Positions 10,773 to 31,231 of a stretch of 43,322 nucleotides of DNA are shown here, piece after piece (positions within the stretch are counted from its first letter, which is position 1; each line of letters begins with the position of its first letter). Made by a program: the position numbers and the translations under genes. The notes below the pieces were generated by a model. The model ran no database searches, had not been told where the DNA came from, and saw only the letters and a program-made list of their open reading frames with translations. The DNA comes from Clostridia bacterium (lineage in GTDB: Bacteria > Bacillota > Clostridia > Acetivibrionales > DSM-27016): assembly GCA_026414765.1 (NCBI GenBank), contig JAOAIJ010000003.1:1-43322 (forward strand), read 5' to 3'.

Positions 10773-10815
10773 ATATATAGTGTTGTAAAATACATTACCA
10801 ACAAAATATATTAAT

Positions 10816-10915
10816 CCATACAACTGGCGGAAGTGGAGTTTACCACAGGGAGTATGGTATGTAGCCTGAACGATTATGTTTCAAAAGCGACATTGAATTT
10901 GCCGACCGCCTGGGC
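10816..10915 (+). promoter_or_regulatory. ZTP/ZMP riboswitch (pfl motif) aptamer
   Basis: The aptamer has the two conserved parts of the pfl-motif RNA. In the 5' part, CCATAC (10816-10821) pairs with GTATGG (10852-10857), enclosing CTGGCGGAA, the hairpin GTGG-AGTTTA-CCAC and AGGGAGT. The 3' part is GCCGACCGCCTGGGC, ending at 10915. The motif was named for its frequent place upstream of pyruvate formate-lyase genes, and pflB follows here. It senses ZTP/ZMP, signals of 10-formyltetrahydrofolate shortage, and so links formate supply to one-carbon demand. Identified by eye from the conserved core; a covariance search would confirm it. Confidence 0.88.
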
Positions 10916-10944
10916 TTTATCATATTTGCCTGGGTGGTTTTATT
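10906..10944 (+). terminator. Riboswitch expression-platform terminator
   Basis: CCGCCTGGGC (10906-10915), the conserved 3' core of the aptamer, can pair over all 10 positions, including three G-U pairs, with GCCTGGGTGG (10928-10937), followed at once by TTTTATTATTT. Ligand binding and terminator formation therefore compete for the same bases, implying that ligand prevents termination and switches pflB on. Confidence 0.8.
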
Positions 10945-11008: not shown

Positions 11009-13243
11009 ATGTTTGAAAAGGCCTGGAATGGATTTATACCTGGAAACTGGCAAGAAACTATCGATGTTCAGGATTTTATAAGTAAAAATTTCTCATCTTA
11101 TGACGGTAATGAAGATTTCCTTATGGATTCAAGTGTCCGGACAAAAAAGCTCTGGAGCAGGTGTAAAAAGCTTCTTCGCGATGAATACCTTAAGGGCGGA
11201 GTTCTGAATGTAGATACGAAAACAATCTCAAATATAACAAGTCACATACCCGGTTATATTGATGAAAGATATGAAGTTATAAAAGGTCTTCAGACGGATA
11301 AACCTCTAAAAAGAGCTGTCATACCTTATGGGGGCATAAGGATGGCAAAGCAGGCTTGCGAAGAATATAACTTCACTCTCTCCCAAAGAACGGAGGAGAT
11401 TTTTGAAAAACACAGAAAAACCCACAATGACGGGGTATTCAGCGCATACACCCATGAAATGCGGAATGCCAGAAAAAGTGGTGTTATTACCGGATTGCCC
11501 GATGCATATGGACGTGGAAGAATTATCGGAGATTACCGGAGAGTTGCGCTTTATGGTGTAAGTAAACTCATAGAAGAAAAGAAAATGGATCTAGATAATC
11601 TTCTTAATACGGGAATGTCAGAAGAAATCATACGTTTGCGGGAAGAAGTTACAGAGCAGATAAATTCACTAAACGAGCTTATAGCTATGGCTTCATCCTA
11701 TGGCTGTGATATATCACGCCCGGCAGAAAATGCACAGGAAGCCATTCAGTGGACATATTTTGCTTTCTTAGGATCCATTAAGGAAACGAATGGAGCAGCT
11801 AATTCACTTGGCAGAGTCAACACCTTTTTTGATATATATATTACGAGGGATCTGGATAATGGAATACTCACGGAAGCCGAAGCCCAGGAGCTCATTGATC
11901 AGTTTGTAATAAAGCTCCGGCTGGTAAGACACCTTCGCACACCGGAGTATAATGAGTTATTTGCCGGAGACCCTGTATGGGTAACAGAGTCATTGGGTGG
12001 GATGTGTGGAGATGGCAGACATATGGTTACCAAAACCTCATACCGTTTTCTGCAAACTCTGTTCAACCTTGGTCCTGCACCTGAGCCCAATCTGACAATA
12101 CTCTGGTCCGAAAAGCTCCCTCACAGCTTTAAAACGTTTTGTGCAAAAGTTTCCATGGTCACCAGTGCTATCCAGTATGAAAATGATGATATAATGAGAC
12201 CGGATTTTGGTGATGATTACGGCATTTCCTGCTGTGTATCGGCAATGCGTATCGGTAAAGACATGCAATATTTCGGTGCACGCTGCAACCTGCCAAAACT
12301 TCTCCTTCTGGCATTAAACGGCGGGAGGGATGAGATAACCGGAGAGCAGGTAGGCCCTGAATTCGAGCCCTATACTGAAGATTATCTTGACTATAAAAAA
12401 GTGCTTGCAAAATACCAGTATATGCAGAAGTGGCTGACTAAGCTCTATGTAAATACCATGAATGTAATTCATTTCATGCATGACAAATATGCTTATGAAC
12501 GCCTCATGATGGCCTTGCATGATACAAAGGTCGAAAGGCTTATGGCTTTCGGTATAGCAGGACTTTCAGTCCTTGTAGATTCCTTAAGTGCAATCAAATA
12601 TACTTATGTCAGAGCGATAAGGGATGAAAGAGGACTCATTACAGATTTCGAAATAAAAGGTCATTTTCCTCAATTCGGTAATGATGATGAAAGAGTGGAC
12701 AGTATAGCAGTAGATATTGTAAAAGGCTTTTACAACGACCTGAAAAGGTATGGCACTTATAGGAATGCAAAACATACACTTTCTGTTCTTACAATTACAT
12801 CTAATGTTGTTTATGGAAAGAAAACAGGCTCTACGCCGGATGGCAGAAAAAAGGGTGAGCCTTTCGCACCCGGTGCCAACCCTATGCATGGGCGTGATAA
12901 AATGGGTGCGCTTGCAGCACTGAATTCGGTTGCAAAAATCCCGTATGAATACTGCAAAGACGGCGTATCGCTCACACTGACACTTATCCCGAGAGCTTTA
13001 GGAAAGGACACGAAGTCCAGGCTTAATAATCTCGCTGCACTCCTGGACGGTTATTTTGTGCAGGGAGGGCACCACATAAATATAAATGTACTAGAAAGAG
13101 TAGTGCTTGAAAAGGCAATGGAAGACCCTTATAACTACCCTCAGCTTACTATCAGGGTTTCAGGCTATGCTGTGAACTTTATCAGGCTGACGCCCCAGCA
13201 GCAGAAAGAAGTTATTGCCCGGACTTTCCATAATGCCATGTAA
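11009..13243 (+). CDS. pflB: Formate C-acetyltransferase (pyruvate formate-lyase)
   Basis: 744 residues, normal length for a PflB-type glycyl radical enzyme. It converts pyruvate and CoA to acetyl-CoA and formate in the cytoplasm under anaerobic conditions. The adjacent catalytic cysteines are in GISCCVSAM near residue 407, and the glycyl radical site is RVSGYAVNF near residue 719. ATG at 11009 follows CAAGGGGG. It is transcribed alone: terminators precede and follow it and no activating enzyme (pflA) adjoins, so the radical SAM activase must be encoded elsewhere. Control by the ZTP riboswitch points to a role in supplying formate for one-carbon metabolism. Confidence 0.97.
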
Positions 13244-19951: not shown

Positions 19952-21700
19952 TTATTTCTCAGGGTAGTTTTCTCTCTTTTGATAGTGAGTATGCAAAAGG
20001 TCATGAGATTTATGGCTACCCGGCTTTTCAAAGAATTCATCATAAAGCATCTTAATTTTAGGATTTTCATGTGATTTCCTTATTGGAGCTTCACGATCTT
20101 CCTCATAAATTGCCTTTGCTCTTTCTTTTCTGAGATCTACCCAGCTTCTGACCTGTGCAGGCTGTATAGGCTGACCTCCACCATTTACACATCCGCCCGG
20201 ACATGCCATAATTTCAACAAAATGGTATTCTGCCTCTCCTTCTTTTATACTCTCAAGCAGTTTTCTTGCATTTCCAAGCCCATGTGCTACAGCAGCCTTC
20301 AGCTTCATACCGCCAGCTTCTACAGTGGCCTCTTTAATACCTTCCGTACCCCTTACAGCTTCATACTCAATCGCTGCTACCTTACCGCCGCTAAGGATCT
20401 CAGCTACAGTTCTGAGAGCGGCTTCCATAACACCGCCTGTTGCACCAAATATAACTGCTGCACCGGTAGCTTCTCCCATAGGATCGTCAAAATGTCTTTC
20501 AGGAAGTTCCGCAAAGTCAATACCTGCTTCTTTTATCATCTTAGCCAGCTCTCTGGTAGTCAATACAACATCTACATCTGCGTACCCAGTTGAAGAAAGT
20601 TCCGGTCTCTGAGCCTCAAATTTCTTAGCTGTACAAGGCATGATTGAAACAACAAATATCTTTGAAGGATCTATTCCCATTTTTTGTGCATAATACGATT
20701 TTAATACAGCACCAAACATTTGATGCGGTGATTTACAGCTTGAAAGGTTATCAAGGAATTCTGGATAGTTATGCTCACAGAACTTAATCCATCCCGGACT
20801 GCATGAAGTTATCAAAGGCAGCTTACCACCATTCTTAATTCTTTCAATGAGCTCCGTACCCTCTTCCATGATTGTGAGATCGGCAGCTGTGTCTGTATCG
20901 AATACCTTTGCAAATCCAAGGCGTCTCAATGCTGCAATCATATTGCTTGTTACCCTTGAACCGATTGGCATTCCGAATTCCTCGCCTAAAGCAACTCTTA
21001 CCGCAGGAGCTGTCTGCACAACTACATGCAGCTCCTTGTTTGCAAGTGCTTCCCAGACTTTATCTGTATCATCCTTCTCACGAAGAGCCCCAACAGGACA
21101 TACATTTATACATTGTCCACACATTGCACAAGGAACCTCGTTCAGTGATTTACCAAAGGCAGACGATACTATAGTCTTAAAGCCTCTTTCCATTGTGTCG
21201 ATTACTGACACAGTCTGTATGTTCTTACACATACTTACACAACGCCTGCATAATACGCATTTGTTTGGATCTCTGACTATAGAAGGCGATACTTTATCCA
21301 AAGGAAGTTTTGCTGATTCACCCTCAAACCTTATATCCTGTATGTTCAAATCTTCAGCAAGCTTTTGCAGCTCACAGTTTCTGCTTCTTACACATGTAAG
21401 GCACTTCTTCTCATGATTTGACAGTATTAGCTCAAGAGTCACCTTCCTTGCTTCTCTTACTGCCGGAGTCTGAGTATTTATAACAAGTCCTTCCGATACA
21501 GGATACACGCATGCAGCCTGTAAGCTTTTTGCCCCTTGTATTTCAACTACGCACATTCTGCATGCGCCAATTTCATTTATTTCCTTAAGGAAGCAAAGTG
21601 TCGGTATAGATACGTTTGCATGTCTTGCAGCTTCCAATACCGTATAATCCTTAGGAACCTGAATCTTTCTACTGTCTATTGTAATACTTACCATTTCCAT
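19952..21700 (-). CDS. hydA: NAD-linked [FeFe] hydrogenase, catalytic subunit HydA
   Basis: 582 residues. From the N-terminus: a [2Fe-2S] domain (CFLKEINEIGACRMC, then C near residue 70), a His-Cys [4Fe-4S] segment (HEKKCLTC...NC), two [4Fe-4S] motifs (CVLCRRCVSMC, CAMCGQCINVCP), then the H-cluster domain with L1 TSCSPGW near 298, L2 MPCTAKK near 353 and L3 MACPGGCVNGGGQP near 498, and the small-subunit-like tail. This is the multimeric M3-type layout. It produces H2 with electrons from NADH and, in bifurcating complexes, reduced ferredoxin. ATG at 21700 follows AAGGAGAG. Last gene of the hydC-to-hydA operon under a Rex operator; no maturation genes (hydEFG) are in the window. Confidence 0.96.
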   Translation of the reverse strand: MEMVSITIDSRKIQVPKDYTVLEAARHANVSIPTLCFLKEINEIGACRMCVVEIQGAKSLQAACVYPVSEGLVINTQTPAVREARKVTLELILSNHEKKCLTCVRSRNCELQKLAEDLNIQDIRFEGESAKLPLDKVSPSIVRDPNKCVLCRRCVSMCKNIQTVSVIDTMERGFKTIVSSAFGKSLNEVPCAMCGQCINVCPVGALREKDDTDKVWEALANKELHVVVQTAPAVRVALGEEFGMPIGSRVTSNMIAALRRLGFAKVFDTDTAADLTIMEEGTELIERIKNGGKLPLITSCSPGWIKFCEHNYPEFLDNLSSCKSPHQMFGAVLKSYYAQKMGIDPSKIFVVSIMPCTAKKFEAQRPELSSTGYADVDVVLTTRELAKMIKEAGIDFAELPERHFDDPMGEATGAAVIFGATGGVMEAALRTVAEILSGGKVAAIEYEAVRGTEGIKEATVEAGGMKLKAAVAHGLGNARKLLESIKEGEAEYHFVEIMACPGGCVNGGGQPIQPAQVRSWVDLRKERAKAIYEEDREAPIRKSHENPKIKMLYDEFFEKPGSHKSHDLLHTHYQKRENYPEK

Positions 21701-21719: not shown

Positions 21720-23516
21720 TTAATGATTCTTGAATATTGCCTTGAACGGACATTTCTCCATACAAGCGCCACACTTGAGACATTTATCCTGTTGTATTAC
21801 ATAAGGTACTTTCTTTTCACCGCTTATACAGTTTGCAGGACATACTTTTGCACAAATGCCGCAGCTCTTACATCTTTCAGCGTTAATTACAAATTGCGTC
21901 ATTGACTTACAAACTCCTGCAGGACACTTTCTCTCATTTACATGAGCCATATATTCATCTTTGAAGTATCTCAAAGTACTGAGTATAGGGTTAGGGGCAG
22001 TCTGTCCCAATCCACAAAGTGCAGATGCCTTTATGTTTTTGGCCAGAATCTCAAGCTTTTCTATATCCCCTTCTTCACCTTTTCCTTCTGTAATTCTTTC
22101 CAGAATTTCATACATTCTCTTTGTACCTATACGGCATGGAGGACACTTACCACAGGATTCCTCAACCGTAAATTCAAGGAAGAATTTCGCAATATCAACC
22201 ATACATGTATCTTCATCCATTACGATAAGTCCACCTGAACCCATCATGGAACCTATCTGTATCAATGAATCATAATCTATTGGTGTATCTATCAACTCAG
22301 CAGGTATGCACCCGCCTGAAGGTCCGCCCGTCTGAGCAGCCTTGAACTTCTTTCCGTTGGGAATGCCACCGCCGATATCATATACTATTTCTCTGAGAGT
22401 TGTACCCATAGGAATTTCAACCAATCCGGTGTTGTTTATCTTACCGCCGACTGCAAAAACCTTGGTACCCTTACTCTTTTCAGTACCCATGCTTGCAAAC
22501 CATTCCGGACCTTTAAGGAAAATTACCGGAATATTAGCATAAGTTTCAACATTGTTCAAAATTGTTGGCTTTTGCCATAAACCTTTTACTGCTGGGAACG
22601 GAGGTCTTGGTCTCGGTTCGCCCCTCTTTCCTTCGATCGAAGTCATCAGAGCTGTTTCTTCTCCACATACGAAGGCACCTGCACCCAACCTGATTTCAAG
22701 GTCAAAGCTAAAATCTGTTCCAAATATGTTTTTACCGAGAATACCATAATCCTTAGCCTGATCTATAGCGATCTGAAGTCTCTTTACTGCAATCGGATAC
22801 TCTGCTCTAACATATATATATCCCTGATTTGAACCTATCGCATAACCTGCAATAGCCATTGCCTCTATTAATGAATGAGGGTCTCCTTCGAGAACACTTC
22901 TGTCCATGAATGCTCCAGGATCACCTTCGTCAGCATTACAGCAAACATATTTCTGATCATTCTGGGATTTGCTTGCAAACTCCCATTTCAGACCTGTAGG
23001 AAATCCTGCGCCACCTCTTCCTCTAAGGCCGGACTTCTTAACAGTATCTATTACCTCTTCAGGCTTCATTTCGGTTAACACTTTGGCTAAAGCCTTATAA
23101 CCGTCATATGCTATATACTCATCTATTTCCTCAGGATTTATAATTCCACAGTTCCTTAAGGCAACCCTTAACTGTTTTGTAAAGAAGTCTACACCCTCAA
23201 GCGACTTTGTAATATCTGCCTGTTCTTTATCACCAGCAAGTAATCTTTTTACAATTCTGCCCTTTAAGAGATGCTCCTCAACAATTTCCTTTATATCCCC
23301 TAACTGAACCATTGTATACATAGCACCTTCAGGATAAACAACAACTATGGGGCCTTCAGCACATAGACCGAAACATCCGGTTCTTACTACTTTCACTTCG
23401 TTTTCCAGTTTATTTTTTGCTAATTGTGTTCCTAGTTCAGTTATTATCTTTTCTGAATTTGAGGATGTACAACCTGTACCACCACAAACCAGAACATGCG
23501 CTCTATAAAGTTGCAT
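21720..23516 (-). CDS. hydB: Hydrogenase NADH-binding subunit HydB (NuoF-like)
   Basis: 598 residues. A thioredoxin-like [2Fe-2S] domain leads (CGGTGCTSSNSEKI, then GCFGLCAEGP), followed by the NuoF core with GRGGAGFPTGLKWEF (NADH site), GAGAFVCGEETALMTSIEG (FMN site) and the [4Fe-4S] motif ESCGKCPPCRIGTKRM. Two ferredoxin-type motifs close the protein, CKSCGICAKVCPANC and CLKCGACMEKCP. This is the diaphorase and bifurcation-site subunit passing electrons between NADH, ferredoxin and HydA. ATG at 23516 follows GGGAGGG. The stop lies 19 bases before hydA. Confidence 0.95.
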   Translation of the reverse strand: MQLYRAHVLVCGGTGCTSSNSEKIITELGTQLAKNKLENEVKVVRTGCFGLCAEGPIVVVYPEGAMYTMVQLGDIKEIVEEHLLKGRIVKRLLAGDKEQADITKSLEGVDFFTKQLRVALRNCGIINPEEIDEYIAYDGYKALAKVLTEMKPEEVIDTVKKSGLRGRGGAGFPTGLKWEFASKSQNDQKYVCCNADEGDPGAFMDRSVLEGDPHSLIEAMAIAGYAIGSNQGYIYVRAEYPIAVKRLQIAIDQAKDYGILGKNIFGTDFSFDLEIRLGAGAFVCGEETALMTSIEGKRGEPRPRPPFPAVKGLWQKPTILNNVETYANIPVIFLKGPEWFASMGTEKSKGTKVFAVGGKINNTGLVEIPMGTTLREIVYDIGGGIPNGKKFKAAQTGGPSGGCIPAELIDTPIDYDSLIQIGSMMGSGGLIVMDEDTCMVDIAKFFLEFTVEESCGKCPPCRIGTKRMYEILERITEGKGEEGDIEKLEILAKNIKASALCGLGQTAPNPILSTLRYFKDEYMAHVNERKCPAGVCKSMTQFVINAERCKSCGICAKVCPANCISGEKKVPYVIQQDKCLKCGACMEKCPFKAIFKNH

Positions 23517-23691: not shown

Positions 23692-24063
23692 TTACTTCAG
23701 ATCTGATGCTCCTATAGTCAAGTCTGCACATACCCTGCCGTTTACAATATGTTCAGCTACGACTCTCACAGCTTTTTCCGAATCCATTTTAACATAAGTT
23801 ACTTTGCTGCCATCCGGATTTATCACTTCAATCACCGGTTCAAGCTTACAAACACCTATACATCCGGTCATTGTAACACTTACATTGCCTATATTCCTTT
23901 TTTTCAATTCTTCGAGTAATGTATTCATTACAGGTCTTGCTCCGGCAGCAATTCCGCAAGTAGCCATACCAACAACTATTCTCAACCCTTCCTTATTGGT
24001 TCTCAGGCTGATTTGTTCCAGTGTTTTCTTTCTTATCTCTTCCAATTCAGCTATAGATTTCAT
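23692..24063 (-). CDS. Thioredoxin-like [2Fe-2S] ferredoxin of the hydrogenase operon (HndB/HydD type)
   Basis: 123 residues. Four cysteines typical of the thioredoxin-like [2Fe-2S] fold: GMATCGIAAGA near residue 35 and TMTGCIGVCKLEP near 80. Homologues are the fourth, non-catalytic subunit of tetrameric NAD(P)-linked hydrogenases (HndB in Desulfovibrio). It begins at ATG 24063 inside the end of the ATPase gene, so translation is coupled. A 175-base gap separates it from hydB, the only sizeable gap in the operon; I see no promoter there that I would defend. Confidence 0.88.
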   Translation of the reverse strand: MKSIAELEEIRKKTLEQISLRTNKEGLRIVVGMATCGIAAGARPVMNTLLEELKKRNIGNVSVTMTGCIGVCKLEPVIEVINPDGSKVTYVKMDSEKAVRVVAEHIVNGRVCADLTIGASDLK

Positions 24064-24613
24064 CTAATACACCTCCGAATGTAATCTTTATCCCCTCATT
24101 AACGAATTCCTTAATCCAGGCTAGTACATTATACTCAGTGATAGGGACTTCTCCAAGTTTTTCTTTAACTTCAGAAGAATTAAAGCTAAAACTTTCTTTG
24201 TTACTATTCAATATAAGCTCAACCTGTATATCAGGATTTGAAAGAATAGTACTTATGACAGTTTCAGGTATATCACCCAAAGGAATCCGATCTATACTGC
24301 TTATCCTGAAACTCACTTCCAATTCTGTCCCTTTACCCTTTTCCGATCTGATTTCAAGCTTACCGCCTGCTTCTTCAGCCGAAGCTTTGAATAAAGAGAT
24401 TCCCAAGCCCACTTTTCTTGTTGTCCTTGTTGTAACAAAGGGGTTTGTCACTTGTGCCAAAAGCTCTTTATCCATTCCTGAACCATCATCCGATACAATT
24501 ATTTTCAAGCAATCCTTTGCCTGATCTGCATCTATTATCACCTTTATTCTGCCTGCCTTGGCTGTCACAGAATTCTGTATTATATCAGTCAAATGCAAAG
24601 ATATGTCCTTCAT
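24047..24613 (-). CDS. Orphan GHKL ATPase in the hydrogenase operon
   Basis: 188 residues. An N box (HLTDIIQNSVTAKA), G1 (SDDGSGM) and G2 (KVGLGISLFKASAEEAGG) define a histidine-kinase-type ATP-binding domain. There is no dimerisation/His-phosphoacceptor domain, sensor or membrane segment, so it is not a complete kinase. The last 70 residues have no motif I recognise. Similar proteins sit between NuoE-like and ferredoxin genes in clostridial hydrogenase operons; the role is unknown, perhaps a phosphorylating or anti-sigma-like regulator. Start ATG at 24613 lies 15 bases after the hydC stop; the end overlaps the next gene. Confidence 0.85.
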   Translation of the reverse strand: MKDISLHLTDIIQNSVTAKAGRIKVIIDADQAKDCLKIIVSDDGSGMDKELLAQVTNPFVTTRTTRKVGLGISLFKASAEEAGGKLEIRSEKGKGTELEVSFRISSIDRIPLGDIPETVISTILSNPDIQVELILNSNKESFSFNSSEVKEKLGEVPITEYNVLAWIKEFVNEGIKITFGGVLDEIYS

Positions 24614-24628
24614 TATATCTCTCTTTTA

Positions 24629-25123
24629 CTATTTATCCTTATATTTTTCTACTATGCCCTCTATATCATCAGGAACAAGTCTTCCATATACGTCTTCATT
24701 TACCATTATTACAGGAGCCAATCCACAAGCACCTATACACCTGCAGGCGTCAAGGGAAAATTTGCCGTCCTCTGTGCATTCACCAACCTCAATACCAAGC
24801 TTTTCCTTCAATTTATCAAGTATCGGTCCGGAACCTTTTACATAACAAGCAGTTCCCATGCAAACATTTACCTTGTATTTTCCTTTTGGATTCAATGAAA
24901 ACTGAGTATAAAACGTTACAACTCCATAAATTTCTGTAAGAGGGATATCAAGTCCTTCTGATATCTTTTTCTGAACACTCATAGGAAGATACCCGTATAC
25001 CTCTTGTGCTTCATGCAGTACAGGAATAAGTGCACCTCTAGTTGTTTTGTACTTTTCGATAATTTCCTGCAGTTTCTGCTCTTTCTCATCTACACATCCA
25101 CAGCAGCAGTTATTTGTACTCAT
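24629..25123 (-). CDS. hydC: Hydrogenase subunit HydC (NuoE-like [2Fe-2S] protein)
   Basis: 164 residues, first gene of the operon. A helical N-terminal half is followed by the thioredoxin-like NuoE fold with its [2Fe-2S] cysteines in NVCMGTACYVKGS and DACRCIGACGLAPVIMVN. The very N-terminus has an extra Cys group (NNCCCGCVDEKEQ). It relays electrons within the HydABC complex beside the FMN of HydB. ATG at 25123 follows AGGAGGT with an 8-base spacing. Promoter and Rex operator lie 140-200 bases upstream. Confidence 0.95.
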   Translation of the reverse strand: MSTNNCCCGCVDEKEQKLQEIIEKYKTTRGALIPVLHEAQEVYGYLPMSVQKKISEGLDIPLTEIYGVVTFYTQFSLNPKGKYKVNVCMGTACYVKGSGPILDKLKEKLGIEVGECTEDGKFSLDACRCIGACGLAPVIMVNEDVYGRLVPDDIEGIVEKYKDK

Positions 25124-25266: not shown

Positions 25267-25284
25267 TTGTTAAGTATTTAACAA
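25267..25284. promoter_or_regulatory. Rex operator of the hydrogenase operon
   Basis: TTGTTAAGTATTTAACAA matches the Firmicute Rex consensus TTGTTAA-N4-TTAACAA at all 14 defined positions. It lies 10 bases downstream of the proposed -10 box, over the start region. Rex is an NADH-sensing repressor, so this operon should be released when NADH is high. Extra half sites occur upstream (TTGTTAA at 25310-25316 and TTAACAA at 25329-25335). Confidence 0.88.
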
Positions 25285-25412: not shown

Positions 25413-25445
25413 AAAAAACGAGGGGTACTATCCTCTCGTTTTTTA
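25413..25445 (-). terminator. Terminator after metA
   Basis: AAAAAACGAGGGG and CCTCTCGTTTTTT pair, with one G-T, around TACTAT; a T tract ends the stem on either strand. It overlaps the metA stop codon. Confidence 0.85.
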
Positions 25446-26360
25446 TTTTATGTCCTCAATATTAAATGGCGTCTCCTGGTAGACATAATAATTCAACCAG
25501 TTACAATACAATAAATTGGCATGGCTTCTCCACAGAACCAGAGGATCCTCAGCAGGATCATCTCCGGGGAAATAATTATTAGGTACGGCTATATCGAGTC
25601 CCTTCGCTATATCCCTGTCATACTCGGCTTTTAGCGTAAGGGGATCATATTCGGAGTGACCTGTTACAAAAATCTGTTTTCCGTCTTTAGTTGCCACCAC
25701 ATATACCCCTGACTCCTGAGACTCGGAAAGCACTTCCAATTCTGAAACCTTTTCTATATCTTCCCTTTTAATTTCCGTATGCCTTGAGTGCGGAACATAA
25801 AATATGTCATCGAAACCTCTGAACAACTTAATGTTTTTCTTATTCAGCGTATGTGGGAAAATACCAAACATCTTATTTTCAAGAGGATATTTGGGTACCC
25901 CGAAGTGATGGTAAAGTCCGGCCTGAGCTCCCCAGCAGATATGAAAAGTTGAAGTGACATTATGATAGCTCCAGTCCATTATCTCTTTAAGTTCATCCCA
26001 ATAATCGACTTCCTCAAACTCCATGCTTTCTACCGGTGCACCCGTTATTATAAGCCCATCAAATTTCTGTTCCCTGATTTCATCAAAGGTATTGTAAAAC
26101 TTGATTAAATGCTCTTCAGGAGTGTTTTTTGATGTATGAGTTTTGGGATGAAGCAGTACTATATCTACCTGTAGGGGTGAATTCCCCAGCAACCTCAGTA
26201 TCTGTGTTTCGGTAGTGATTTTAGTAGGCATAAGGTTAAGTATAGCTATTTTAAGCGGTCTGATATCCTGATGGAAAGCACGATGCTCAGGCATTACAAA
26301 TATATTTTCATTTAACAGTATTTCATAAGCAGGCAGATTGTCCGGTATTTTAATCGGCAT
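25443..26360 (-). CDS. metA: Homoserine O-acetyltransferase (MetA family)
   Basis: 305 residues. First committed step of methionine synthesis, acylating homoserine. Motifs: [13 protein letters not shown], catalytic Cys in [16 protein letters not shown] near residue 141, and VTGHSEYD near the C-terminus. The acyl-CoA specificity residue near 111 lies in GAPVESMEF: Glu, where succinyl enzymes have Gly (GAPLGLVEF in Escherichia coli). By the published rule for this family it should use acetyl-CoA. ATG at 26360 follows CAAGGGGGAAG. Transcribed in the same direction as cysK but from its own promoter, behind the cysK terminator. Confidence 0.94.
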
Positions 26361-26688: not shown

Positions 26689-27624
26689 TCAGCTTTCCTG
26701 GAATAACACAGTCGACAAGTACCTTTCACCGGTATCAGGCAGAAGAACAACTATTGTCTTACCTTTATTCTCAGGTCTCTTTGCTATCTGAGTTGCTGCA
26801 AAGGCAGCTGCTCCTGAAGATATCCCCACCAGCAGCCCTTCACTTTTAGATAGCTTTCTTGAAGTCTCAAAGGCTTCTTCGTTTTTAACCTTAATAATTT
26901 CATCGATAACGGATTTGTTTAGAATATCAGGCACAAACCCCGCCCCTATTCCTTGAATTTTATGAGCTCCGGGGTTGCCTCCGGACAATACTGGTGAATC
27001 ATTTGGTTCAACTGCAATTATTTTTATATCAGGATTTTTTTGCTTAAGTACTTCTCCCACTCCAGTTATTGTCCCACCTGTACCTACTCCGCCGACAAAT
27101 ATATCCACCTGACCGTCAGTATCTCTCCATATTTCCTCTGCAGTAGTCCTCTTGTGAATTTCCGGATTAGCAGGGTTTTTAAACTGTTGGGGAACGTATG
27201 AATTCTGTGTTTCCGCAGCTAACTCTTCAGCCTTCCTAATAGCACCTTTCATCCCTTCAGCACCAGGAGTAAGTACCAATTCCGCTCCCAAAGCCTTCAG
27301 AAGATTCCGTCTTTCAATACTCATCGTATCAGGCATAGTCAATATTAATTTATATCCTCTTGCTGCTGCAACAAAAGCCAATGCTATCCCTGTATTACCG
27401 CTTGTAGGTTCAATAATAACCGTATCCTTGTTTATCAGACCCTTTTCTTCAGCATTCTTAATCATTGCATATCCAATTCTGTCTTTTACACTTCCTGCCG
27501 GATTGAAGTATTCAAGTTTTGCTATGAGCTTTGCGTCAATATTATTTGAACTGTTATAATTTGATAGCTCCAATAGCGGAGTATTCCCTATAAGGTCAGT
27601 TAAGTTTTTAGCTATATTTGGCAT
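26689..27624 (-). CDS. cysK: Cysteine synthase (O-acetylserine sulfhydrylase)
   Basis: 311 residues of fold-type II PLP enzymes. It joins O-acetylserine and sulfide to give cysteine. The PLP lysine is in [14 protein letters not shown], substrate loop [11 protein letters not shown], glycine loop [14 protein letters not shown], and the C-terminal Ser region [12 protein letters not shown]. Length is normal. ATG at 27624 follows GGAGGAATC. Close to metA, so the pair covers cysteine and methionine supply, but each has its own terminator. Confidence 0.95.
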
Positions 27625-27794: not shown

Positions 27795-28520
27795 TTAGTC
27801 AGAATTTTTACCTTCACCGAGTTTGCTTATCAAGCATTCCATACTCAATTCCTCCAGCTCAATAAAGCATTCCCTTTCAAGAATATTACCAAGTGTATGT
27901 GCATCAGAAGATCTTATAAAGTTATATCTGTTAAGATAAGAATATTTTTCAAGTAATTCTTCAAGATTACAGCTTTTAGAAATTTCTATAAATTTAAAAT
28001 CAAGATGCTGCGGAATAAGACCAAGGTTTGATATTACACTATAGGAATTTCTGTCGATATGAGCAGGAATAGCAACTCCCCCAAGCTCCTTTACCAATCT
28101 GCATGCATCATCCAAACCTATATTTACTGCAGTTATCAGCATATTTTTGTGATAGCCCACTATTTCATCATATTCATTCATCATTATTTGCTGTCCAAAT
28201 ACTTCGCTGCGGTTATCAATCTTCGGAAGCAGTTCATAGATATACTCCTGCATCCTGAAAGCAGCGACCTTCCCCGGAAAGAGGCATATCAGATGCACCT
28301 CTTCCCTGGTTTCAAGCTCCATTCCGGGGACTGCCAATATATTGGCATTTTCTGCACATTTGGCTATGGCACTATAGTTTTCCATAGAGTTATGATCGGT
28401 TACTGCAATTATATCCAATCCCTTTAAAGAGGCCATATTTACTATATTATTCGGAGTCATATCATTATCTGAACAAGGCGACAGCGCAGAGTGTATATGC
28501 AGGTCTATTGCAACCTTCAT
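27795..28520 (-). CDS. PHP-domain phosphoesterase
   Basis: 241 residues. The PHP metal motifs are present: DLHIHSALSPCSDND at the N-terminus, VTDHNSM near 40, LAVPGMELET near 65, AIPAHIDR near 155 and SSDAHTLG near 200. The fold resembles the trinuclear phosphoesterases of the TrpH/YciV group, acting on nucleotides or sugar phosphates. ATG at 28520 follows GGGGGAGG. It is the last gene of the cluster with the two DRTGG-like proteins, GHKL ATPase and hydrogenase-like protein, which argues for a regulatory rather than housekeeping role; the substrate is unknown. Confidence 0.88.
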   Translation of the reverse strand: MKVAIDLHIHSALSPCSDNDMTPNNIVNMASLKGLDIIAVTDHNSMENYSAIAKCAENANILAVPGMELETREEVHLICLFPGKVAAFRMQEYIYELLPKIDNRSEVFGQQIMMNEYDEIVGYHKNMLITAVNIGLDDACRLVKELGGVAIPAHIDRNSYSVISNLGLIPQHLDFKFIEISKSCNLEELLEKYSYLNRYNFIRSSDAHTLGNILERECFIELEELSMECLISKLGEGKNSD

Positions 28521-28594
28521 AGGAGCCTCCCCCAATAAACATAGATTTTCTTATTTCTTATATTCTATGGCCTTCGTTGGCCATAATTTCAGCT

Positions 28595-28927
28595 TTACCC
28601 TAACAAATTATGAGCCTTCCAGCATATTTCATATGCCCTCACAGTTGTTCCCAGTAAAACCACGCCTTCCTCATTTGCCTTGTTGATTGTATTTTCATCA
28701 ACTGCAATACCCTCAGGTATGATTACGCATGCAACTTCCGTAAGTAAAGCAACTGCGATGACGTTAAGATGAGTATGGACAGTTATCCATGCATCCCCCC
28801 TCGAAGCATGTGACATGACCCAACTCATCAGATCGCATACATACATACCCGAAACTTCTTTATCAAGATTCTTTTCCCCTGCAATTACCTTCATATCCAG
28901 CTTTTGTGCAAACTCTTCAACCCTCAC
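28595..28927 (-). CDS. DRTGG-domain-like protein (second of two)
   Basis: 110 residues with the alpha/beta pattern of stand-alone DRTGG proteins: MKVIAGEKNLDKEVSGMYVCDLMSWV, with a C-terminal EEGVVLLGTTVRAYEIC. It resembles the product of 30766-31119 in length and layout (AGEKNLDKEVSGMYVCDLMS against AGEENLEMDIEAACGSDLMS), so the two are paralogues flanking the ATPase and hydrogenase-like genes. DRTGG domains occur in regulators and nucleotide-binding proteins; no catalytic residues are evident. GTG at 28927 follows AGGAGC at 8 bases and comes 14 bases after the hydrogenase-like stop. Confidence 0.78.
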   Translation of the reverse strand: MRVEEFAQKLDMKVIAGEKNLDKEVSGMYVCDLMSWVMSHASRGDAWITVHTHLNVIAVALLTEVACVIIPEGIAVDENTINKANEEGVVLLGTTVRAYEICWKAHNLLG

Positions 28928-28941
28928 AAGTATCAGCTCCT

Positions 28942-30264
28942 TTAATCTTTTGAATCGGTATTCTTATCCAGAACAGGAGGCATTTTAGCTTCCAACTCCA
29001 TCATTTGGACTGCCAGATCCCTTACTTTTTCCCTTAACCTGAAAATGCAATCAGTTTCGTTTGCATTTCCTCTGACAATATCTTCAGCAAGAGCTCTGCA
29101 GCTGGGAGCACCACAGGCTCCACAATCAAGCCCGGGAAGGTTTTTGTTTATAAGCTCAAGGGCCTCAAGCTTTTTCATTGCCTCACGAATATTTTCATCC
29201 AGCTTCATAACCGGCTTATACTCTATTTTTCCTGTCCATACAAGATCATCTTCTGATTTTTCCGACTGGTCGGAAGAAAAGCATTTTTCTTTAGCTTCAT
29301 CAATTATTTTCTTTAATCTTGTCTTTGCTACATAAACATTCTCTACCGTCAAGGGCCCGCCCAGACACCCCCCGGTGCACGATAAAGCCTCAATAAAATC
29401 CACATCATCAAGTCTGTCGTTCTCAATCTCTTCAAGAATCGTTATAACATTATGAATCCCATCAACTGCCAGAAACCTGTCAGTACCCAGCGCGAGGCTT
29501 TCCCCACCGGAATTAGCCCAGCGTATTCCCTCAAACCCGGCCTGTTCAAGCCCTTCACACTGCCTTATTTTATTCATACTGTTCAAGAGTTTCATATAAA
29601 TATCTTTTATTGAAATTACCCCGTCGACAAATGAATCTTTTTTTTCATAAGGGGCTTTTACACTTGTTACTTTTGCTGCGCATGGAGTTATGAAAAACAC
29701 TCCTATGTCTTGTGCGTCAATACCTTCTGTTTTCGAAATCTTGTTTTTTGATATCTCTGCTGCTACCTCCATCGGAGATTCCAGTCTTACTATATTATCA
29801 ATAAGGTTCGGAAACCTTACCTGGATAAGCTTGACAACCGCGGGACAAGCCGAGGATATAAGCGGCTTCCTAATTCCTTTTTTTATCAAGAGCTTCCTGG
29901 TTGCCGCTGTTACTATCTCTGCTGCACGCGCCACTTCATAAACATAGTCAAATCCAATACTCTTCAACGCGGTAAGCAGCTGGTCCCTGGGGACTGTATT
30001 TTTAAACTGCCCATATAGGGATGGCGCAGGAATAGCTATCTTATACCTGAAAGACTTTATCGCACCAAACGGATCGCTTATAGCTTTTTTGGCATGATAG
30101 GGACAGACCCTGATACATTCTCCGCAATCGATACAACGTTCATTAATTATCCTGGCTTTACTTTTTCTTACTCTTATCGCTTCTGTAGGACATCTCTTGA
30201 TACAATTCGTACAACCCCTGCACTTTTCTTCATCAAGAGTAACTGAATGAAAATATGTCCCCAT
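28942..30264 (-). CDS. [FeFe] hydrogenase-like protein, putative sensory type
   Basis: 440 residues. N-terminal CRGCTNCIKRCP and CIDCGECIRVCP bind two [4Fe-4S] clusters. The H-cluster domain follows with L1 SSACPAVVK near 138, L2 TPCAAKV near 194 and L3 ALSCTGGCLGGP near 296. Four Cys ligands for the H-cluster cubane seem available, but L1 has Ala in place of the first Cys of the catalytic TSCCPxW motif, the Trp is missing, and L3 lacks the usual GGGQP. Loss of that Cys is known from sensory HydS proteins. The C-terminus has another Fe-S motif, LDCGACGAPSCRALAEDI. ATG at 30264 follows GGAGTG. Its neighbours (GHKL ATPase, DRTGG, PHP) are regulatory, so sensing H2 or redox state is likelier than H2 production. 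Confidence 0.88.
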   Translation of the reverse strand: MGTYFHSVTLDEEKCRGCTNCIKRCPTEAIRVRKSKARIINERCIDCGECIRVCPYHAKKAISDPFGAIKSFRYKIAIPAPSLYGQFKNTVPRDQLLTALKSIGFDYVYEVARAAEIVTAATRKLLIKKGIRKPLISSACPAVVKLIQVRFPNLIDNIVRLESPMEVAAEISKNKISKTEGIDAQDIGVFFITPCAAKVTSVKAPYEKKDSFVDGVISIKDIYMKLLNSMNKIRQCEGLEQAGFEGIRWANSGGESLALGTDRFLAVDGIHNVITILEEIENDRLDDVDFIEALSCTGGCLGGPLTVENVYVAKTRLKKIIDEAKEKCFSSDQSEKSEDDLVWTGKIEYKPVMKLDENIREAMKKLEALELINKNLPGLDCGACGAPSCRALAEDIVRGNANETDCIFRLREKVRDLAVQMMELEAKMPPVLDKNTDSKD

Positions 30265-30340
30265 AATGCTTCACTCCATTCTATAAGAAATACATGAAAG
30301 TTTATATCTGATTAAAAGTATATTTCCCATATCCCAGTCA

Positions 30341-30769
30341 TTAGACTATATTGACAACAATTGTCACTTTTGTTCCTTTTCCTACTTCAGTTTCAATATT
30401 CAGATAATCAGAATATCTTTTTATGTTTGGAAGCCCCAACCCTGCCCCAAATCCCATTTCTCTTATTTTATCCGAAGCAGTAGAGTATCCTTCCTGCATG
30501 GCTAACTCAACATCTACTATTCCGGGCCCCTCATCCTTAAAAACTATAGTTATTTTGTCCGCACCGATTTCTACCTCTGCAATTCCGCCGCCCGCATGGA
30601 TTACCGCATTTATTTCCGCTTCATACATGGCAATAGCAGCTTTTTTTATTGTCAAAGGATTTATTCCTAACTGATTCAAGGTTTTTTTCACATTACTGGA
30701 TGCTTCTCCGGCAATAGTAAAATCATCTGCAGGTATGGTATAGTGAAGATATATTCTGTCTTCGCTCAA
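30341..30769 (-). CDS. GHKL ATPase, RsbW/SpoIIAB-like (anti-sigma type)
   Basis: 142 residues. N box YEAEINAVIHAGG, G1 KDEGPGI, G2 GFGAGLGLPNIKR. Single-domain ATPase of the size and form of anti-sigma factor/serine kinases (RsbW, SpoIIAB, RsbT). There is no His-acceptor domain and no sigma factor or STAS antagonist nearby. TTG at 30769 overlaps the TGA of the DRTGG gene (TTGA) and has GGGGG seven bases upstream; GTG at 30775 would sit on the SD. It probably binds or phosphorylates a partner encoded in this cluster; that is inference. Confidence 0.85.
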   Translation of the reverse strand: MSEDRIYLHYTIPADDFTIAGEASSNVKKTLNQLGINPLTIKKAAIAMYEAEINAVIHAGGGIAEVEIGADKITIVFKDEGPGIVDVELAMQEGYSTASDKIREMGFGAGLGLPNIKRYSDYLNIETEVGKGTKVTIVVNIV

Positions 30770-31119
30770 TCCCACACCCCCTTTCCCGTTATGCCTGCAC
30801 TGTATAATTTACCACAGGCTGTAAACATAGGGTTTTTGGTAGTCATCACAGCAATCCCCTTTTCTCTGGCAAGCGCAATAATGCTATTATCCGGCTTCTT
30901 CCCTCTCACAAAAACTATTGCCTTTATGTCCATCATCTCTGCTGTTCTCACAACCTGAAGATTCACAAGTCCTGTGAGCATCAATACATTGTCCTTGACA
31001 TAAGCCATAACATCACTCATAAGATCCGATCCGCACGCAGCTTCTATATCCATCTCAAGATTTTCTTCTCCAGCCAGTAATTCAGCATCCAGAACTTTTA
31101 ATATTTCTTTTATTTTCAT
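30766..31119 (-). CDS. DRTGG-domain-like protein (first of two)
   Basis: 117 residues, first gene of the putative sensory cluster. Pattern: KEILKVLDAELLAGEENL, then SDLMSDVMAYV, LVNLQVVRTAEMMDIKAIVF, RGKKPDNSIIALAREKGIAV, ending TGKGVWD. Such small proteins often accompany hydrogenase-like and GHKL genes in clostridia. No membrane segment and no metal motif. ATG at 31119 follows TAGGGGTG. The Rex-like site and promoter at 31203-31231 lie about 90 bases upstream. Biochemical role unknown. Confidence 0.78.
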   Translation of the reverse strand: MKIKEILKVLDAELLAGEENLEMDIEAACGSDLMSDVMAYVKDNVLMLTGLVNLQVVRTAEMMDIKAIVFVRGKKPDNSIIALAREKGIAVMTTKNPMFTACGKLYSAGITGKGVWD

Positions 31120-31202: not shown

Positions 31203-31231
31203 ATTATAACACATTGTTAATTAAATAACTA
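31203..31231 (-). promoter_or_regulatory. Promoter with overlapping Rex-like site, sensory hydrogenase cluster
   Basis: TATAAT (31203-31208, minus strand) has a weak -35, TAGTTA, 17 bases away. TTGTTAATTAAATAACTA at 31214-31231 matches the Rex consensus at 12 of 14 positions and covers the -35 and spacer. If functional, Rex binding would block the promoter and tie this cluster to the same NADH signal as the hyd operon. Confidence 0.45.

Follow-up and report, generated by a model that had tools for sequence, protein, structure and literature searches.

The closest described relative of the system considered here is TamHydS of Thermoanaerobacter mathranii. According to the accessible parts of the papers cited throughout this text, group D (M2e) [FeFe] hydrogenases are called "putative sensory", and TamHydS has low rates and turns over H2 reversibly (PMC8163306). 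Group D is described there as having two N-terminal [4Fe-4S] clusters, an H-domain, a C-terminal Cx2Cx4Cx16C motif and no PAS domain, with C299 lost and M353 replaced by Ser or Thr. The secondary structure of TamHydS changes with H2 (PMC13104023), and reports of 2012-2013 already pointed out that such genes lie near kinases and bifurcating hydrogenases (PMC3561251, PMC3608648). The TamHydS papers of 2020 and 2026 leave the signal output open, and in their accessible parts an ATPase and a supposed AraC gene are the only partners named. Here, a five-gene module around a protein of this kind (HydS) is analysed in a window of 43,322 nt from Clostridia bacterium contig JAOAIJ010000003.1 (GCA_026414765.1), numbered along the forward strand. 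The five genes are a dedicated, co-inherited unit. Judging from their sequences, it is about evenly balanced whether fermenting bacteria use them as a dedicated signalling unit, in which HydS would signal via a GHKL ATPase to DRTGG and PHP proteins.

All five module open reading frames (ORFs) lie on the reverse strand and run from 31119 down to 27795 in the order DRTGG-A, ATPase, HydS, DRTGG-B, PHP (Table 1). Among the 148 related genomes surveyed, 93 are HydS-positive and 55 HydS-negative, and the two groups are separated by a score gap (at least 402.8 bits in 93 genomes, 151.5 for the best match to another gene; in genome G030, where HydS is split, its second piece matches at 160.6 bits). 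The ATPase is found in 91/93 HydS-positive genomes and PHP in 90/93, and both occur in 0/55 HydS-negative ones; these counts are uncorrected for shared descent, which lessens their weight, and the Fisher p values are not probabilities since the genomes are related. Four of the five partner misses (ATPase in G105 and G139, PHP in G057, G093, and G126) have HydS at a contig end on the relevant side, while G093 is a true absence. Neither ATPase nor PHP is present in the 32 HydS-negative genomes with HydF, so the set tracks HydS and not general [FeFe] maturation.

Of the 93 HydS-positive genomes, 80 were used for gene order. Two overlapping sets of 80 loci each were read, with at least 8 shared contigs by length; a locus is testable if it has enough flank or a match to the partner. 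The ATPase precedes HydS in 78/78 and 77/78 testable loci of the first and second set, respectively, the single miss (L152) being a start-codon artefact. All five genes are adjacent in 69/74 and 66/72 testable loci. L053, with its long HydS ORF, is excluded from the first-set tally, and L239 and L169 represent one contig. The ORF caller uses the first start codon, and gaps and upstream windows are therefore approximate. Gene fusions as a proof of contact were considered and rejected, as the long ATPase ORFs of L142, L182, and L196 overlap DRTGG in another frame, which is a first-start artefact. A preliminary description of the window, which proposed a unit of HydS with an ATPase, DRTGG, and PHP and named lack of cluster conservation as an argument against it, is thus borne out by conserved order, near-perfect co-occurrence, and a constant ATPase-HydS pair. 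Its five co-directional genes are all present with Pfam scores above the gathering cut-offs of the families it gave, but only two of the three joints it called tight or overlapping prove so (-10, 76, 14, and 59 nt in gene order). Because M6 is kept in 97% of 73 PHP family sequences, the PHP start is more likely ATG 28520 than TTG 28535 (246 aa), in which case the preceding joint measures 74 nt.

The ATPase-HydS pair is the constant core around which the module is nested. In Spirochaetota, HydS is found in 20/392 genomes at E 1e-90, and among 19 loci the ATPase precedes HydS in 19/19 and DRTGG-A lies upstream in 11/19, with DRTGG-B and PHP in 0/19 (14 of these loci have at least 2.2 kb downstream). 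The neighbourhoods of L241-L242 are covered only in part; the partner tally covers all 19 loci. In a few outlying loci the pair has other neighbours: a receiver-domain gene 29 bp upstream of the ATPase (L200 and L243), a CheW gene 11 bp upstream (L177), an [FeFe]-hydrogenase gene fused to a methyl-accepting chemotaxis protein (MCP) 101 bp after HydS (L141), and an energy-coupling factor (ECF) riboflavin-transporter gene (L137). In two related Spirochaetota loci, L235 and L237, a STAS gene heads an apparent operon STAS - ECF ATPase-like - CbiQ-like - ATPase - HydS. STAS proteins are the usual partners of SpoIIAB-type kinases. No STAS antagonist was detected among the window module proteins by Pfam scan, and sigma genes were not searched for. 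Close CheW relatives occur in 2/179 loci (phmmer, single query), one of them beside HydS, and receiver domains of other loci sit further from HydS. Hydrogenase-chemoreceptor fusions, which combine an [FeFe]-hydrogenase domain with a C-terminal iron-sulphur and an MCP domain, are located at L141:11404-13317 (+) and L143:14004-15836 (-).

Since the 440-aa window HydS carries the published sequence features, it is counted as a member of the known group D (M2e), the putative sensory class of TamHydS. Loops L1 (SSACPA, with A139 and C140), L2 (TPCAAK), and L3 (CTGGC), as well as the lack of GGGQP and of a Trp after L1, are as the preliminary description had them; it left out a pair of [4Fe-4S] motifs at the N-terminus and an iron-sulphur domain at the C-terminus (Cx2Cx4Cx16C, PF04060; C381, C384, C389, and C406). 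The four H-cluster Cys (C140, C195, C296, and C300) are kept in 153/153 distinct HydS sequences obtained from 161 rows of the two locus sets, and across the 153 none of the 12 accessory Cys is lost except for two in one truncated row. The position of C299 in CpI, Ala in the window (A139), is never Cys (Ala in 139, Ser in 9, Asp in 2, Asn in 2, and Leu in 1 of the 153). T193 occupies what we take, from the PC motif of CpI, to be the M353 position, with Thr or Ser in 152/153. L294, which precedes the first L3 Cys by two residues, presumably occupies the M497 position by the CpI motif, and this position is Leu in TamHydS too. No PAS domain is matched in the window HydS at E 0.01, and the score against the catalytic group A6 model NF040763 is 108.3 bits, far from the cut-off of 765. 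The AlphaFold model (predicted local distance difference test, pLDDT, 88.4) resembles [FeFe] hydrogenases among the 50 best Foldseek matches listed. In a tree with T. wiegelii HydS as the stand-in for TamHydS, 24 HydS rows lie on one side of a branch with support of 73/81, which is below the usual threshold, compared with 100/100 for HydA; row L104_other832 has a very long branch and is probably a misread sequence. Two other assignments were dropped, a new hydrogenase class given the group D features and an H-cluster-less pseudo-hydrogenase given the four invariant Cys.

The window HydS agrees with TamHydS in domain order, in the loss of C299, in having Thr/Ser at M353, in the C-terminal Cx2Cx4Cx16C, and in the proton path (E252/E289/S249/D265 in TamHydS, E255/E292/S252/D268 here). 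Both loci have an ATPase neighbour and a bifurcating hydrogenase downstream, but only the window has cysK and metA between the module and hydABC. HydS of Thermoanaerobacter wiegelii (L145), about 55% identical to that of the window, matches 17/17 published TamHydS landmark residues at identical numbers and has the same gene order. Group C (M2f) sensory hydrogenases (TmHydS, HfsB, and R. albus HydS) are likewise proposed sensors in which C299 is lost and [4Fe-4S] clusters are present, two at the N-terminus and one at the C-terminus (PMC8163306); unlike the window HydS, they carry a fused PAS domain. The Hfs operon contains a serine-phosphatase homologue (PMC11837493).

As for the partner proteins, the ATPase has intact N, G1, and G2 boxes, with E52, N56, D81, G83, G85, and G108/G110/G112/G114 at 100% of 79 sequences, and its closest solved structures are those of SpoIIAB (E 1.8e-5). 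From the structure-match alignment, we take its Glu to be the equivalent of the SpoIIAB catalytic Glu. SpoIIAB/RsbW anti-sigma kinases share with it the GHKL family, these boxes, and size; the partners of the module ATPase, however, are HydS and DRTGG, and only L235 and L237 have a STAS gene in the apparent operon. Both DRTGG proteins have invariant D32 and S35 and a near-invariant T49 (78 sequences each). DRTGG-A keeps S35 in 78/78 and T49 and T59 in 99%, whereas D32, L33, S35, T49, and N55 of DRTGG-B are at 100%. The AlphaFold model of DRTGG-A (pLDDT 90.5) best matches 2ioj in the PDB (template modelling score 0.83), followed by 3l2b (0.71) and 1ko7 (0.66), which suggests a fold shared with the DRTGG domain of CBS-pyrophosphatases, AF1212, and the HPr kinase N-domain. 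Unlike these, module DRTGG proteins stand alone and carry no fused CBS, pyrophosphatase, or kinase domain, and DRTGG-A has no DNA-binding domain match in the Pfam scan. PHP has nine residues at 100% of 73 sequences (H13, H15, D47, H48, E73, H81, H159, D211, and H213), which we take to be metal-ligand-type positions and which are shared with PHP phosphoesterases such as 2yb1. The latter (E 4.8e-4; deposited as an amidohydrolase) is presumably a 3',5'-nucleoside bisphosphatase. The PHP family also has its own invariant stretch around LSPCxDxDMTPNNI and scores far below specific NCBIfam cut-offs.

No DRTGG or PHP partner is named in the accessible part of the published TamHydS description, and neither family is named in a hydrogenase-signalling role in the open-licence literature searched, in which one paper on DRTGG and hydrogenase is unrelated. 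That literature does not describe the five genes as a signalling system with dedicated partners; the HydS group and its ATPase/bifurcating-hydrogenase neighbourhood are already known. The preliminary description, which took the pathway as undescribed and the hydrogenase as non-canonical, holds for the DRTGG and PHP partners and for the sensory class it suggested. That HydS is a new kind of protein is not supported, as group D and TamHydS have been characterised and the neighbourhood published.

The proposed order of the signal, from the H-cluster to the ATPase and on to PHP or DRTGG, is read from gene context and motifs. HydS would be the sensor: its H-cluster and iron-sulphur chain would come to equilibrium with H2 and the low-potential electrons of the cell, and its shape would shift with the H2 or electron state. 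The SpoIIAB/RsbW-type ATPase might then read HydS directly. In Clostridia its targets would be the small DRTGG proteins, for which it would most likely serve as a Ser/Thr kinase or a nucleotide-gated binding switch. The PHP enzyme would strip the phosphate or degrade the phosphorylated product, which would reset the switch. Since the Pfam scan gives no DNA-binding domain in the five module proteins and both this operon and hydABC look Rex-controlled in part of the genomes, the output is probably at the protein level and not direct transcription. One such target could be the bifurcating hydrogenase nearby, whose operon has its own GHKL ATPase. A fuller version, which we hold only tentatively, is an H-cluster-driven partner switch without PAS domain, histidine kinase, or transcription factor: HydS would control a SpoIIAB-type Ser/Thr kinase that phosphorylates DRTGG, PHP would reset it, and lineages would have added different outputs to the HydS-ATPase core (DRTGG/PHP, DRTGG alone, receiver, CheW, or STAS). 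S35 as the phospho-acceptor is a guess from its invariance. Such a unit is best viewed as a variant of sensor-kinase-phosphatase signalling. It would bear on the choice of fermenting bacteria among H2, ethanol, lactate, and acetate as H2 accumulates, and its four co-inherited partners, with the ATPase as the core, provide a short list of pairwise tests for the output of HydS.

Transcription of the module and of the hydABC operon looks to be under Rex control in part of the genomes, according to candidate operators. The window by itself has 10 Rex-type sites at ≤3 mismatches versus a shuffle mean of 7.9, and 27/100 shuffles reach 10. At ≤1 mismatch, such sites lie upstream of 15/136 modules and 21/82 nuoE genes, a clear enrichment over the 0.0 in shuffles, and the internal controls give 0/133 before PHP and 1/85 before nuoF. 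The window genome itself codes for a Rex-type N-terminal domain (PF06971). In C. bescii and C. thermocellum, the five-gene hyd operon has been published as Rex-controlled (PMC6391272, PMC8457756), with the HydS module unmentioned in the accessible parts of these papers.

Several results weigh against the signalling unit as proposed. The literature searched contains no experiment on any partner protein. The ATPase scores far below the family cut-offs of SpoIIAB (TIGR01925; 51.9 vs 135 bits) and RsbW (24.3 vs 145 bits), and we know of no DRTGG domain that serves as a phospho-acceptor. STAS relatives are found in only 2/179 loci (phmmer, one query), and signalling neighbours in few outlying loci, the others having a transporter or apparently unrelated genes. 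At 1 mismatch, 121/136 modules are without an upstream Rex-type site, so Rex control would be lineage-bound. As for H2, the E252 equivalent is lost in 9/153 HydS (7 Gln and 2 Ala) and the L2 Lys is replaced by Arg in 5/153. In TamHydS, E252 replaced by Val or Asp leaves <0.01% H2 oxidation (PMC10407848), and H2 does not reduce the C-terminal cluster (PMC13104023); the natural variants may thus be unable to oxidise H2. Moreover, HydF is not matched at E 1e-60 in 12/93 HydS-positive genomes, one of them a single contig, and a repeat search at 1e-10 in 11 of them returned only sub-cut-off matches. HydE and HydG are above the cut-off in 0/12 of these genomes (sub-cut-off in G034, G138, and G139), and the genomes of L152, L177, and L200 are likewise without HydE, HydF, and HydG above the cut-off. 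Given the Glu losses and the missing maturases, pure H2 sensing is not secure: of the H2/redox sensing put forward in the preliminary description, the sensory class stands, and H2 rather than general redox state as the signal is not supported.

The Gln variants at the E252 position are L111-L116 and L118, which also have Asp, Ser, Asn, or Leu at C299, and the Ala variants are L081 and L131; five of the nine also show Arg for the L2 Lys, and module genes are mostly kept. HydF absence compared with E252-equivalent loss gives 3/8 vs 6/72 (p 0.04), a weak association uncorrected for kinship. G124 has HydE and HydF, with HydG not found. In G118 (a single contig), G016, G072, G112, G077, G080, G068, and G038, PF02906 exceeds 320 bits and HydE, HydF, and HydG are all below the cut-off.

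These variants agree with a possible, though on balance doubtful, alternative in which HydS is a redox sensor that reports ferredoxin or low-potential electron pressure via its iron-sulphur chain, H2 being one route and H2 turnover having been dispensed with in some lineages. The accessory Cys are kept, while the proton-relay Glu and the L2 Lys are lost in some sequences, maturases are missing as listed above, and Rex-type sites link part of the operons to NADH/NAD+. On the other hand, the invariant H-cluster Cys are hard to explain without an H-cluster, and the window genome encodes HydG, HydE, and HydF, together within 5.5 kb on contig C21. The absence of maturases may also be technical, since PF02906 proteins of catalytic-enzyme strength (>310 bits) are present in 10 of the 12 HydF-less genomes (not in G057, 55% complete, or G138) and in those of L152, L177, and L200; missing contigs or withheld assembly stretches could be the cause, although G118 is one contig. 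An unlikely reading is that the module proteins are accessory, assembly, or activity-control factors that load, protect, or switch HydABC and send no cell-wide signal. It is consistent with HydA being encoded on the same strand no more than 9.5 kb downstream in 42/63 and 35/49 testable loci of the two sets, with Rex-type sites before both operons, and with a GHKL ATPase in each. It fits less well with the 19 Spirochaetota loci, where the stretches read show no recognisable NuoE or HydA gene downstream of HydS (the rest of these genomes was not checked), and with the absence of ATPase and PHP from the 32 HydF-positive HydS-negative genomes, whose HydABC content was not checked.

A classical H2-sensing transcription switch, with HydS and the ATPase acting on a DNA-binding regulator, was proposed from the AraC regulator that Land 2020 names beside TamHydS; we regard it as quite improbable. 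In T. wiegelii the place of that gene, downstream of HydS, is taken by a 111-aa DRTGG protein without a helix-turn-helix (HTH) match, and the gap between the T. mathranii tags Tmath_0862 (HydS) and Tmath_0865-0869 (hydrogenase) is just large enough for DRTGG and PHP (PMC3608648). The reported AraC gene is thus probably the DRTGG gene, judging from T. wiegelii and the locus tags, the T. mathranii sequence itself not having been read. AraC-type output was dropped, as the T. wiegelii DRTGG neighbours have no HTH and the five window proteins no DNA-binding domain. Finally, a residual low-rate catalytic hydrogenase with accidental neighbours is barely credible: it would account for the reversible turnover by TamHydS, but gene order and co-occurrence are far beyond chance and conservation contradicts it, and the proton-relay Cys of group A is lost. 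With the signalling unit still preferred, the surroundings of the module are summarised below.

The bifurcating-type operon omitted from the preliminary description starts 2.7 kb downstream of the module and comprises nuoE, a second GHKL ATPase, a thioredoxin-like [2Fe-2S] gene, nuoF, and hydA, from 25123 to 19952. The intervening metA and cysK are probably unrelated to the module: in the first set of 80 loci, cysK is matched by no ORF (phmmer only) and metA by 3.

Table 1. Coordinates of module genes, neighbouring genes, and candidate operators (window positions unless a locus is given; Pfam gathering cut-offs in bits are 25.2 for PF07085, 26.4 for PF02518, 22.1 for PF02906, and 26.4 for PF02811)
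Feature	Position	Strand	Remarks
DRTGG-domain protein A, module gene 1	30766-31119	-	117 aa; PF07085 35.1 bits
GHKL ATPase, SpoIIAB/RsbW-like, steadiest HydS partner	30341-30775	-	144 aa; PF02518 41.7 bits
HydS, group D (M2e) [FeFe] hydrogenase-like	28942-30264	-	440 aa; PF02906 132.9 bits, PF04060, Fer4
DRTGG-domain protein B	28595-28927	-	110 aa, GTG start; PF07085 29.3 bits
PHP-domain protein, probable metal-dependent phosphoesterase	27795-28520	-	241 aa from ATG; PF02811 41.0 bits
cysK	26689-27624	-	between module and hydrogenase operon
metA	25443-26360	-	between module and hydrogenase operon
NuoE/HydC-like subunit, first operon gene	24629-25123	-	PF01257 and TIGR01958 over cut-off
Second GHKL ATPase	24047-24613	-	188 aa; PF02518 65.4 bits
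Thioredoxin-like [2Fe-2S] protein	23692-24063	-	123 aa; PF01257 21.2 bits, below cut-off; same place in many loci
NuoF/HydB-like subunit	21720-23516	-	PF01512, PF10589; TIGR01959 523.5 (under cut-off of 558.65); NF010120 over cut-off
HydA, catalytic group A6 [FeFe] hydrogenase	19952-21700	-	582 aa; NF040763 942 bits, cut-off 765
Rex-type operator candidate	31214-31231		2 mismatches; about 95 bp upstream of module; alone not above chance
Rex-type operator, exact palindrome	25267-25284		upstream of nuoE, just after TG-extended promoter-like site 25323-25295 (-)
STAS-domain gene	L235:5858-6352	-	about 2 kb upstream of ATPase-HydS
STAS-domain gene	L237:6280-6774	+	about 2 kb upstream of ATPase-HydS

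The second GHKL ATPase differs from the module ATPase and accompanies the thioredoxin-like [2Fe-2S] gene in many loci. The window genome has a size of 4.56 Mb in 53 contigs and encodes three PF02906 proteins. According to model scores, the window MetA passes the acetyltransferase model (516 vs 460.5 bits) and fails the succinyltransferase model (453.7 vs 495). A ZMP/ZTP riboswitch is detected at 10810-10922 (+) with 50.2 bits, directly upstream of a 744-aa ORF at 11009-13243.

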